From Gemmatimonadaceae bacterium (lineage in GTDB: Bacteria; Gemmatimonadota; Gemmatimonadetes; Gemmatimonadales; Gemmatimonadaceae): a DNA stretch of 64,000 bases. Position numbers and translations under genes: made by a program. Positions within the stretch are counted from its first letter, which is position 1. The number at the start of each line of letters is the position of its first letter. Of this stretch, positions 37,014 through 40,544 are shown in pieces. Where the stretch lies: NCBI GenBank assembly GCA_030835125.1, contig JAUQWM010000065.1:1-64000 (forward strand), read 5' to 3'. The notes below the pieces were generated by a model. It saw nothing but the letters and a program-made list of their open reading frames with translations. It was not told the origin of the DNA and searched no databases.

Positions 37014-37020
37014 GTCGGGC

Positions 37021-37338
37021 ATGTCCGCACGCACGGTGACCCGATTTGCGGTGGTGGTCTTCCTGGCCCTTCCCGCCGGGGGCTGCCGCCGGGATCGCGT
37101 GTTCACCGAGATGAGCGACTCGACCTTCGTCCGCACGATGGTCGCGCTCCGGAAGCTCCCCGTCGGCATGATCGCCGACCCCGCGGCGCGGGCGCGCCAG
37201 CGCGACTCCATCCTCACCGCCTACGGCGTCACCGGGGCGCAGGTCGAGTCCACCGCGGTTCGCCTGGCGAACGACCCCGCGCGCGCCGCGGCGATCTGGC
37301 GCGCCATCGAACAGCCGACGGTCAGCTCACCGCCATGA
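37021..37338 (+). CDS. Small lipoprotein of unknown function
   Basis: The 105-residue product has a short signal segment and a good lipobox (VFLALPAGGC, Cys23). It should therefore be lipid-anchored at the cell envelope. The mature part is helical: FTEMSDSTFVRTMVALRKLP, then ARARQRDSILTAYGVTGAQVESTAVRLANDPARAAAIWRAI. This pattern of 'must be processed and checked' helices resembles DUF4296-like small lipoproteins, but I do not claim membership. Upstream lies a promoter that predicts a leaderless message. The stop TGA is the start of the A-run of the terminator on the other strand. Confidence 0.7.
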   Translation: MSARTVTRFAVVVFLALPAGGCRRDRVFTEMSDSTFVRTMVALRKLPVGMIADPAARARQRDSILTAYGVTGAQVESTAVRLANDPARAAAIWRAIEQPTVSSPP

Positions 37339-37369
37339 AAAAAAGGCGGCGCCCCGAAGGACGCCGCCT
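37338..37369 (-). terminator. Intrinsic terminator of the sorting-domain gene
   Basis: Minus strand: stem AGGCGGCG/CGCCGCCT around a 10-nt loop, followed by seven T residues (plus-strand A-run 37338-37344). It lies 22 bp after the stop of the gene at 37391. It is the only classic hairpin plus T-run terminator I found in the window. Confidence 0.85.
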
Positions 37370-37390: not shown

Positions 37391-37828
37391 TTACTTCCGG
37401 ATGGTCATCTTCCGGGTAATCGGCGAGCCGTTCACCTCGAGACGATAGGCATAAATACCGGAGGCGGCCTCGCGGTTGGTGCCGCGAACCTTGCCATCCC
37501 AGTACGCCGTATACTCCCCGCACGTCAGGAACACGTTCTCGAGCGGTTGTCCACCGCCCTGCAACACCGGCACCGCCACCAGCTGCGTGAGCAGGTTGAA
37601 GATCTTCAAGGTCACGCGGTACTGCCTGTTCGGGTCGATGCAGGTCGGGAACCCACCCACCGAGAAGGTGATGCGAGTCTCGGGATTGAACGGGTTGGGG
37701 TAGTTCTGCTTGAGTTCAGAACCGGTCCGAATGTCCCTGCTGGACTGCTGACCCTGGGCGGCGGCCGTGGACGCCGATAACGCGAGGAGAGCAAGCACAA
37801 ACAACCGTGCTGCCCAACGTTGCTTCAT
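37391..37828 (-). CDS. Secreted protein consisting almost only of a FlgD/Por-type C-terminal domain
   Basis: The 145-residue product has a signal peptide ending near STAAAQ. A C-terminal-type domain follows: LKQNYPNPFNPETRITFSV near residues 38-57, VTLKIFNLLTQLVAVPVL, a Y-x-A-Y-W-D-G-K turn, GIYAYRLEVNG and TRKMTIRK at the end. This is the FlgD-like/type A sorting domain usually found at the end of large exported proteins, yet here it has no cargo. One Cys pair (TCID, TCGE) sits inside the domain. It has its own strong promoter, a GGAG ribosome-binding site and a T-run terminator, so it is probably well expressed. Confidence 0.8.
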   Translation of the reverse strand: MKQRWAARLFVLALLALSASTAAAQGQQSSRDIRTGSELKQNYPNPFNPETRITFSVGGFPTCIDPNRQYRVTLKIFNLLTQLVAVPVLQGGGQPLENVFLTCGEYTAYWDGKVRGTNREAASGIYAYRLEVNGSPITRKMTIRK

Positions 37829-37902
37829 GTGACTTCTCCGACTGACGAAAGAGGGACGTGCGTCATTCTCCTGTTTCTGGTCATTCAGTAACCACTTTTG
37901 CG

Positions 37903-37931
37903 AACTTAGGAACGCGCTACCAAACTGTCAA
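37903..37931 (-). promoter_or_regulatory. Strong promoter of the sorting-domain gene
   Basis: Minus strand TTGACA (37926-37931), a 17-bp spacer and TAAGTT (37903-37908). The leader is about 70 nt with GGAG some 7 nt before the ATG at 37828. The promoter lies just after the selB stop. Confidence 0.75.
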
Positions 37932-37944
37932 GCAAAGGGTTACG

Positions 37945-39786
37945 TCATTTCGCCGATACGAGTACTCGCCCCGTCGCCCGACGTTCCGTGATCCGCTTCC
38001 GGTCACAGTATTCCAGGAACGGAATGAGGTATTTCCTCGACAGCCCGAGCACGTCCCGCAGTTCCGATGGGCTGTACTCGCGTCCGGTCGTCATCCCGTC
38101 CCGCAGCTTCGTGACCAGCCGTTCGACGACTTCTCCTGCATAAAACCTGCCCGGCTCCACGCCAACCACGAGCCCTTCGCGCTCGAGAAGGCGCAGGATC
38201 GGCACCGGGTCGCGCTGGTGCTCCACCGTGAGCTGGGAAACGTCCGGCGGTTCCGCCCCCGCGGACCTCAGGTCCATCAGGACCCGCTCCTTCCAGGCCG
38301 CATCCCCGGCGCCGACGATGGGTGCCCACCCCGGCCTGGCCAACATCGACCCTCGACGCTCGACCCTTCCGGCGGCCAGCAGGTTTGTGACAGCGCGTTC
38401 GGCGAGGTCGGGCGCGACCCGGAGCGCCGTCGCCACCTCGGCCAGCGGGAGTCCATCGCCCAGCGGCTCGCTGGCATGCGCCGCCTCCACCGCCGCGACG
38501 ATGTCGTCGCCAACCGTGGCGACCACCGCCCCCGGGTAGACCCGGGTCCCGATGGCCACCACGGAGGGAGATTGCAGCAGCGACGAGAGGGCCGCCTGCC
38601 GGACGCCGAGTCGGGGCGCGAGGTGAGACCGCATCACGCCGTGTCGCCCGGCCTCGGCGAGGACGCGCTCCAGGGCCTCGGGGCCGGGTCCCAGGAAGTG
38701 CCAGGGCGCGGCGCGCCGCTGCGGCGGAAGCGGATCCACCACCAGTCCCCCACCGACCGTGGACGGCGGTGATGCATAACGAAGGACGAACCGGTCCCCC
38801 GCCCGTGCCAGCACCGGTTCCTGCAACACCACTCGCGCGGCGCGCCGTTCGCCCGGCTGCAGCGCACCGCCGGGCGCCACGATCCTGGCACCGACATCCG
38901 CCGTGCCGATGTGAAGCCTGATCCATTCCCGCGGCCGCAGCGGATGTGCGGCGGATTCCAGGAGCGACACCTCGGCCCGCAGCATCGACGTCGCGGGCCA
39001 CTGCACGTCACCGCACAGCCACGCGCCCCGGGCCACGTCGGCGAGGTCGGCGCCGGAGATCGCCACGGCGCATCGCGTTCCCGGGGTGGCCGCGGCCACG
39101 GCGCCCCCATGCACCTGGACCCCGCGCACCCGGACCATCGCGCCCGACGGCTGCACGACCAGCGCGTCTCCCGCCGCCACCTGCCCGTTCCAGACCGTTC
39201 CCGTCACGACCGTCCCCGTGCCCCGCACCGAGAACGCGCGGTCCACCGGCATCCGGAACGCGTCGGCGGCGTCACGCACCGGCGCGGCGCGCAGGGCGCT
39301 GCCTAACGCCTGCCGGAGTTCCGCGAGCCCGGCCCCGGTGGTCGCCGACGTCGCCACGACCGGCGCGCCCTCGAGCGCCGTGCCGCGCAGCGCCGAGGCG
39401 ACATCGGCCGTCACCAGCGCGAGCCACTCCTCGTCGACCAGGTCGCACTTGGTGAGCGCCACGACCCCCCCGGTCGTGCCCAGCAGCGAGAGGATCGCGA
39501 GGTGTTCGCGCGTCTGCGGCATGACGCCTTCGTCGGCGGCGACGACCAGGAGCGCCACGTCCACCCCGGTGGCCCCAGCCACCATGGTGCGCACGAACGC
39601 CTCGTGCCCCGGGACATCGATCATGCTGGCCGTGCCGACGCCGTCCAGGACCAGCGGGGCAAACCCGAGCTCGATCGTGATGCCCCGGCGCTTCTCTTCC
39701 GGCAGGCGATCGGTGTCCACGCCGGTGAGGGCGCGCACCAGCGTCGTCTTGCCGTGATCGATGTGCCCGGCCGTGCCGATGATCAT
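37945..39786 (-). CDS. selB: Selenocysteine-specific elongation factor
   Basis: SelB delivers Sec-tRNA to UGA codons marked by a SECIS hairpin. The 613-residue protein opens with the GTPase signature [58 protein letters not shown] and TKCDLVDEE follow, then EF-Tu domains 2 and 3. The C-terminal 230 residues are winged helices (for example [26 protein letters not shown]) that recognise SECIS RNA. This shows the organism can use selenocysteine. selA, selD and tRNA-Sec are not in the window. The ATG overlaps the recO stop (ATGA). Confidence 0.95.
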
Positions 39787-40544
39787 GCCGGGCGGCGGAG
39801 CCGGGCCTCCCAGCCGTCGAGCGCGCGCAGGGCCCGTCCATCCCCCATGTGATGGTGCAGGAACTCGCGGAGGAGGCGCAGGTGCGCGCGCTGGGCAAGG
39901 TCGTCAGTCGCCGGCGCGACGCGATCGGCGAGCCACGCCGAGATGGCCGAGCGCGCATCGGCCGGGAGGTCCCGCCCGATCGAGACGCTCCGCGTGCAGC
40001 GCGCGCAGACGATGCCGCCCCCGTGATGGCTGAACGGGACCGGCAGCCCTTCGGCCACCTCCGATCCGCAGGCACAACAGCGGTCGAGCGTGGGGCTGAA
40101 CCCCAACGCGGCGACGTAGCGCCAGGCCGCCGCCAAGCCGGAGACCGTCGACGTGCCCGCCGGCGATGCCGCAACCTCGTCCAGCGATCGCCCCAGGACG
40201 TCGAAAGCCTCGTCGTGCGGGTCGGCGTGGGCAAAGCGCAGCGCCAGTTCCGCGAGGGCCGAAGCGGTCGCGAACCGGTCGAGGTCCATCGCCAGCGCCA
40301 TGCGGCTCCGGGTGAGGTCGAACCCGGTGAGGTTCGACAGGTCTCGACCCGGGCGCAGGGTGAACTGGGCCACGCCACTGGCGAACAGGTCCAGCGAGTG
40401 GCCGAAGGCGTTACGCGGCTTCCGCGCTCCGCGCGCCAGCACCGACTGCACGCCGTGCTCGCGCGTGACGAGGCGCACGATGCGCGACGACTCCAGGTAG
40501 TCCTGGACGTGCAGGACGATCGCGTCGGTCGCGACCAGGGTCAT
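39783..40544 (-). CDS. recO: DNA repair protein RecO
   Basis: RecO loads RecA at gaps with RecF and RecR. The 253-residue protein has an N-terminal OB fold (TDAIVLHVQDYLESSRIVRLVTREHGVQSVLARGARKP), a helical middle, and a C4 zinc finger (CCACGSE near residue 150, then CARC near 180). ATG at 40544 is chosen because it begins just before the OB fold and fits family length. It overlaps selB downstream and lies 19 bp from the btuB stop. Confidence 0.94.
   Translation of the reverse strand: MTLVATDAIVLHVQDYLESSRIVRLVTREHGVQSVLARGARKPRNAFGHSLDLFASGVAQFTLRPGRDLSNLTGFDLTRSRMALAMDLDRFATASALAELALRFAHADPHDEAFDVLGRSLDEVAASPAGTSTVSGLAAAWRYVAALGFSPTLDRCCACGSEVAEGLPVPFSHHGGGIVCARCTRSVSIGRDLPADARSAISAWLADRVAPATDDLAQRAHLRLLREFLHHHMGDGRALRALDGWEARLRRPA

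Follow-up and report, generated by a model that had tools for sequence, protein, structure and literature searches.

A single-copy, cargo-less sorting-domain-like protein conserved across the class Gemmatimonadetes, a possible partner of a sortase-less SprA/PorV-type translocon

The closest described counterparts of the protein reported here carry a C-terminal domain (CTD) of the type IX secretion system (T9SS). The type A sorting domain (PF18962, TIGR04183) has a YPNPFNPxT start, an SGxY motif, a C-terminal KM/K strand, a predicted Ig-like sandwich and an extreme C-terminal position, all of which our protein shares. According to passages of PMC11285876, PorU and PorZ of Porphyromonas gingivalis are machinery proteins with uncleaved CTDs. 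Passages of PMC7712824 report that the CTD of the small P. gingivalis protein PorA (246 aa) binds PorV and that PorA reaches the surface, and that Fjoh_0547 of Flavobacterium johnsoniae (112 aa) is still secreted by sprA and porV mutants. In Flavobacterium, the CTD of a substrate lies within the SprA pore and is bound to the extracellular loops of PorV, with one conserved Lys, as stated in part of PMC10994853. With regard to distribution, one source describes T9SS as found only in Bacteroidetes (an excerpt of PMC4793230) and another considers that T9SSs may be present in Gemmatimonadetes (PMC11285876, in the part consulted).

The window, namely the whole 64,000-nt stretch of Gemmatimonadaceae DNA that was analyzed, carries on its minus strand a gene for a CTD-like protein with no cargo. 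The gene, its signals and its conserved neighbors are as follows.

37391..37828, minus strand: gene for the 145-aa stand-alone CTD-like protein, stop codon included (ATG start; orthologues and dN/dS)
37757..37828, minus strand: signal-peptide-like segment, residues 1–24 (sequence; conserved across orthologues, Q25 invariant)
37394..37714, minus strand: CTD-like domain with predicted Ig fold, residues 39–145 (alignments and predicted structure)
37640..37642, minus strand: Cys63 codon, first of a clade-specific pair (orthologue alignment)
37520..37522, minus strand: Cys103 codon, second of the pair (orthologue alignment)
37903..37931, minus strand: promoter-like element TTGACA-N17-TAAGTT (recurs in 15/27 orthologue upstream regions)
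37833..37839, minus strand: ribosome-binding site GGAGAAG (sequence; GGAG in most orthologue upstream regions)
37344..37369, minus strand: intrinsic terminator, an 11-pair stem-loop followed by a T-run (terminator scan)
37945..39786, minus strand: selB-like gene, conserved upstream neighbor (Pfam; adjoins in 38/49 loci)
39783..40529, minus strand: recO, conserved upstream neighbor (Pfam; upstream in 47/49 loci)

The initial annotation had described a signal-type N-terminus followed at once by the domain, with a good ribosome-binding site, a T-run terminator and a strong promoter. The first three were borne out. The 145-aa protein consists of a hydrophobic N-terminus running to STAAAQ, about 14 linker residues and a domain that begins L39KQNYPNPFNPET, ends in SGIYAYRLEVNGSPITRKMTIRK and extends to the last residue; judging from the sequence, the signal would be cleaved near AAA|Q. 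GGAGAAG lies at 37839–37833, and the terminator stem and T-run occupy 37369–37344. The promoter stood in part. A perfect TTGACA hexamer, a 17-nt spacer and TAAGTT are present at 37931–37903, and TTGACA-N16-18-TAAGTT, one mismatch being allowed per hexamer, recurs in 15 of the 27 orthologue upstream regions, roughly 105 nt from the start codon, and occurs once in the window, but a sigma-70 scan called no promoter by its criteria. In the orthologues the element takes the form TTGACA-N17-CCTA(A/T)GTT, which is far from TATAAT and could be the usual −10 form in this bacterial group.

Downstream, a convergent small ORF at 37015–37338 (plus strand) has a lipoprotein-like start, GGCRRD, and matched nothing in a Pfam search; we presume a resemblance to DUF4296 lipoproteins from its pattern. 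It was rejected as a partner of the CTD protein, as it adjoins the CTD gene in just 4 of 49 loci by tblastn.

A search for orthologues of the same length, which had been proposed as a check, was successful. With the single 145-aa protein as the query, full-length relatives were found in 51 of 60 related genomes, with E values down to 4e-71. A profile built from 29 orthologues matched 156 of the 200 genomes sampled from the phylum. Six of the matching genomes are from a different class (f10), and the matches displayed for them sit in longer frames, so that 150 of 194 sampled genomes remain for the class Gemmatimonadetes, with exactly one match in 144 of the 150. The order recO-(selB)-CTD is conserved: of 49 loci, 47 have recO upstream in the same orientation and 38 have selB. 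Some of these loci come from the same contigs, and the 49 are thus not all independent; one further locus, L187, was taken from a genome without the CTD gene. In the window, clpB stands behind the CTD gene. The f8 genomes, which are weak by profile, have the same order (L208, L209). The dN/dS values of the four orthologue pairs calculated were 0.06–0.21, indicating purifying selection. These results show that the CTD-only family is single-copy and vertically inherited in the class. The initial observation was thus real, and its interpretation was partly supported.

In a survey of named genomes, in which 54 of the 80 loci returned were examined, 10 of the 11 Gemmatimonadota loci were stand-alone forms of 148–168 aa, the other (L081) being a fused 529-aa form. 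In other phyla, 42 of 43 loci were C-terminal tails of proteins of at least 313 aa; the sole exception, L047, was a frame of 90 aa that lacks a signal-type segment. Fused CTDs are presumably the ancestors of the stand-alone domain. Only one CTD-like domain was found in the window's genome (next match at E 0.35) vs 58 in the T9SS-rich f10 genome G060, and several relatives in families f2–f4 retain one or a few larger CTD proteins. Five of the six f10 genomes (L202–L205 and L207) share a second near-stand-alone form located away from recO-selB; it has a signal-type segment, about 70 residues and then a CTD in which the Lβ3β4 glycine is retained. Its length is 192–193 aa in four genomes and 230 aa in L207, where the start is earlier.

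The window protein scored below threshold with both sorting-domain models, at 14.5 bits against a cut-off of 27 for Pfam Por_Secre_tail (PF18962) and 13.6 bits against 23 for NCBIfam TIGR04183. It was nevertheless assigned to the CTDs on the basis of the orthologue profile, an alignment with CTDs from other phyla and the predicted Ig-like sandwich, and it bears the type A marks YPNPFNPET, SGIY and RKM..RK. The set examined for residue conservation comprised 66 distinct orthologues. A match was obtained at 83 of 84 loci, the window protein brought the total to 84 sequences, and 18 that were identical over their last 100 residues were removed. Position 140 was basic in all 66 (K in 55, R in 11), and the 27 fused CTDs had K in 26 and R in 1. 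We infer that this position corresponds to the published conserved Lys of the last strand, in the C-terminal motif. The Lβ3β4 glycine was present in only 3 of the 66, all in f6, compared to 26 of the 27 fused CTDs; A, S, Q, T or R replaces it in the stand-alone family. The alignment also revealed longer loops specific to the family, one preceding strand 3 and one preceding the strand that bears Trp110. The window family thus differs from the type A sorting domain in being cargo-less, in falling under both cut-offs, in the replaced glycine and in the two loop insertions.

Members of f6 have a basic extension at the C-terminus, which in L168 and L192 is of the RRSRFWPFGRRG type; in f7 the YPNPF motif has decayed. 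Family f6 (L168, L169 and L192), in which SprA was not detected, is the sole group that retains the Lβ3β4 glycine. According to passages of PMC11285876, secretion is affected by replacing the C-terminal residues of PorU and by the G699R substitution in RgpB, whereas G699P has no significant effect and C-terminal extensions are tolerated. The lost glycine and the f6 tail are therefore no proof of lost export.

The initial annotation had noted an inserted Cys pair and taken it as a sign of a stable product. Cys63 and Cys103 are present, but the pair is a trait of a clade and not of the family core: both were found in 40 of the 66 distinct orthologues, neither in 24 and the second site only in 2. 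The pair is nearly confined to family f1, where it lies in the longer loops, and L191 of f2 also has both; the two second-site-only orthologues, from f3, hold a local Cys pair within one loop. The all-or-none presence of the two sites supports a predicted Cys63–Cys103 disulfide.

The AlphaFold2 model had a mean pLDDT of 80.4, with mostly >90 over the last 80 residues, and was made from an alignment of 37 rows that included fused CTDs, which may bias it towards CTDs. The domain is predicted to fold as an Ig-like beta-sandwich. In VIA-align, the top match was the PorU CTD (Z 9.7, rmsd 2.4, 93 aligned residues), and the PorZ CTD and pilus chaperones gave Z scores of 8.8 and 9.4, respectively. The fold alone is thus no arbiter of CTD identity, as the pilus chaperones score so high. 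In Foldseek, generic Ig folds ranked first. A PDB search with the orthologue sequence profile returned just two light-harvesting matches at chance level. The window domain resembles the CTDs of PorU and PorZ structurally, but each of those ends a protein of hundreds of residues, whereas here the CTD is the whole mature protein.

Genes for the type IX machinery were searched in the genome and the class, as a check for PorU, PorV and SprA had been suggested. It was answered in part. A SprA/Sov translocon is encoded on another contig of the window's genome (TIGR04189, 573.6 bits over 2068 aa against a cut-off of 200). A PorV/PorQ-family barrel, encoded beside era in the same genome, passed the cut-off of the subfamily model PorV_fam (103 bits, cut-off 90) and was far under the equivalog cut-offs (PorV, 48.6 against 250; PorQ, 40.2 against 220). 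Other FadL-type barrels exist, for example BamG (PMC12611786, in the part consulted), and the match may be another of these. No PorU sortase was found in the window's genome, a 99% complete assembly, with either NF033707 or Peptidase_C25. Across the genomes searched, PorU exceeded its cut-off in all 6 f10 genomes and in none of the 30 from the class, and Peptidase_C25 agreed with this pattern save for one partial match in G071. GldM (TIGR03517) gave no match in 36 genomes, the PorU-bearing f10 genomes included, or in 14 controls, which makes this search uninformative.

PorV/PorQ-family genes often adjoin genes of about 1,100–1,400 aa with a weak terminal CTD (G063, G038, G108, G121 and G060; L200). 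These look like cargo-shuttle pairs; PorU was not found in the class. The SprA gene neighborhood is conserved across the class (L128, 1831–9423, and other SprA loci), and we take the genes beside SprA to be similar to LptF/LptG and GspE/GspF/PilT.

The CTD gene and SprA tend to occur together. Among the 200 genomes, 133 had both, 23 the CTD only, 11 SprA only and 33 neither; some of the 11 may reflect assembly gaps. By genus, the numbers were 66, 12, 7 and 8, respectively, out of 93 (Fisher p = 0.003; counts tallied by hand, no tree correction, and many of the double absences supplied by genus g23). Among the genomes listed, which leave out 24 and 36 rows without a match in the CTD and SprA searches, respectively, the CTD-less genera with at least three genomes (g23 and g47) were also without SprA. 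In family f1, the median CTD score was 186.6 where SprA was not found and 219.3 where it was (p = 0.012; 10 vs 47 genomes, no tree correction). When the rows used to build the profile were removed, the medians were 177.4 and 216.8 (p = 0.0014; 6 vs 31 genomes, three of the six being from one genus). Genus g39 has SprA and a strongly diverged CTD (72–85 bits). PorV_fam gave no match over the cut-off in f6 (G071 and G079) or in the f7 genus g83 (G143 and G148), in which the CTD is kept and SprA was undetected.

We tentatively favor, with rather less than even confidence, the reading that the CTD has been domesticated to serve a sortase-less translocon of the SprA/PorV type as its dedicated partner or gate. 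The protein would be exported by Sec and would fold as a 3+4 Ig-like sandwich. Its conserved C-terminal strand, with K140 or R, would dock with the PorV/PorQ-type barrel at its extracellular loops, with the SprA pore, or with both, a step modeled on cargo CTDs in Flavobacterium. Having neither cargo nor sortase, the protein would no longer be an address label but a standing channel partner, such as a gate, a plug or a surface cap. The loss of the Lβ3β4 glycine and the family-specific loops would fit a shift from a general sorting signal to a dedicated partner. The reading is favored by the conserved single-copy family and its gene order, the single CTD of the genome, the SprA and PorV_fam matches with PorU not found, the co-occurrence with SprA, the basic residue at position 140 and the PorU CTD as top structural match. 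The 12 of 93 genera that have the CTD without detected SprA were counted against it, as were the 11 genomes with SprA only, the diverged CTD of g39, the results for PorV_fam in f6 and g83, the subfamily level of the PorV/PorQ match and the high ranks of generic Ig folds and pilus chaperones. A more specific form of it is unlikely, in which the translocon is a one-client outer-membrane channel and the cargo-less CTD its built-in gate, seated permanently in the SprA/PorV-type pore and replacing the Plug of Bacteroidota.

Those same 12 genera favor an alternative that is nearly as probable, in which the domesticated CTD no longer needs SprA or PorV and acts as a small and stable Ig-like protein in the periplasm or at the surface, with a structural, chaperone-like or signaling role. 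The gene stays despite the basic tail of f6 and the loss of YPNPF in f7, the glycine is lost, the disulfide-type Cys pair is conserved in f1, and there is a precedent, as passages of PMC7712824 describe PorA and the 112-aa Fjoh_0547 as arriving at the surface or in the medium independently of Sov/SprA or PorV. It is opposed by the positive co-occurrence with SprA, the lower family-profile scores in f1 where SprA was not found, and the basic C-terminal residue, thought to face PorV, in 66 of 66 orthologues. The two readings were ranked close together because cargo CTDs bind SprA and PorV, yet PorA and Fjoh_0547 exit without Sov/SprA.

It is rather improbable that the protein is a normal T9SS substrate of very small size, the final client left to a reduced system, with a task outside the cell. 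SprA and a PorV/PorQ-family barrel are encoded, the domain is at the extreme C-terminus in most orthologues, and f2–f4 relatives still have one or more larger CTD proteins, but the protein has no effector part beyond the domain, scores under the sorting-domain cut-offs and lacks the glycine, and PorU was not found. Of the roles put forward in the initial annotation, a plug or a scaffold is possible. A decoy or inhibitor competing with other CTDs for the sorting machinery, which the likeness to cargo tags would favor, is very improbable, since with no other CTD found in the genome at E <0.3 and no PorU found there would be little to compete with. The suggestion of a truncated remnant of a larger cargo protein agrees with the fused state of 42 of 43 loci outside the phylum, but is scarcely credible, and refuted as a recent event, given stand-alone orthologues class-wide in one gene order, an intact signal-type N-terminus and purifying selection.

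Stand-alone or near-stand-alone CTD proteins are known from Fjoh_0547 and PorA. Fjoh_0547 is likened here by description only, as a CTD-only-sized protein in part of PMC7712824, and it lives beside a full T9SS, unlike the window family. PorA is similarly a small CTD protein, but it has a FimH-like N-terminal domain and a host with a full T9SS, whereas the window protein has no extra domain and no PorU was found with it. Two claims were accordingly dropped: that a stand-alone CTD is unheard of, as passages of PMC7712824 already describe Fjoh_0547, and that SprA in this phylum is new, as part of PMC11285876 already suggests T9SS there. A literature search of titles and abstracts, with subscription journals and preprints outside its scope, returned no description of a class-wide stand-alone CTD in Gemmatimonadota. 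Nor did it return a cargo-less CTD family that is class-wide and single-copy, has diagnostic residues of its own and accompanies a retained SprA, the sortase being undetected.

Since the bare tag is kept as one gene copy in most of the class, the tag-cutting enzyme is undetected and the channel is usually retained, a secretion tag has probably turned into a protein with its own job in Gemmatimonadetes. A match resembling a sorting domain in these genomes need not mean a cargo, which is a warning for annotation. Type IX secretion has been studied almost only in Bacteroidota, in which many cargos, a sortase, a motor and a channel occur together. A class with the channel and one bare tag, in which the sortase was not found, is a natural minimal system, and such a system would reveal what SprA does when it has no cargo to pass and how a secretion signal can turn into an independent protein.
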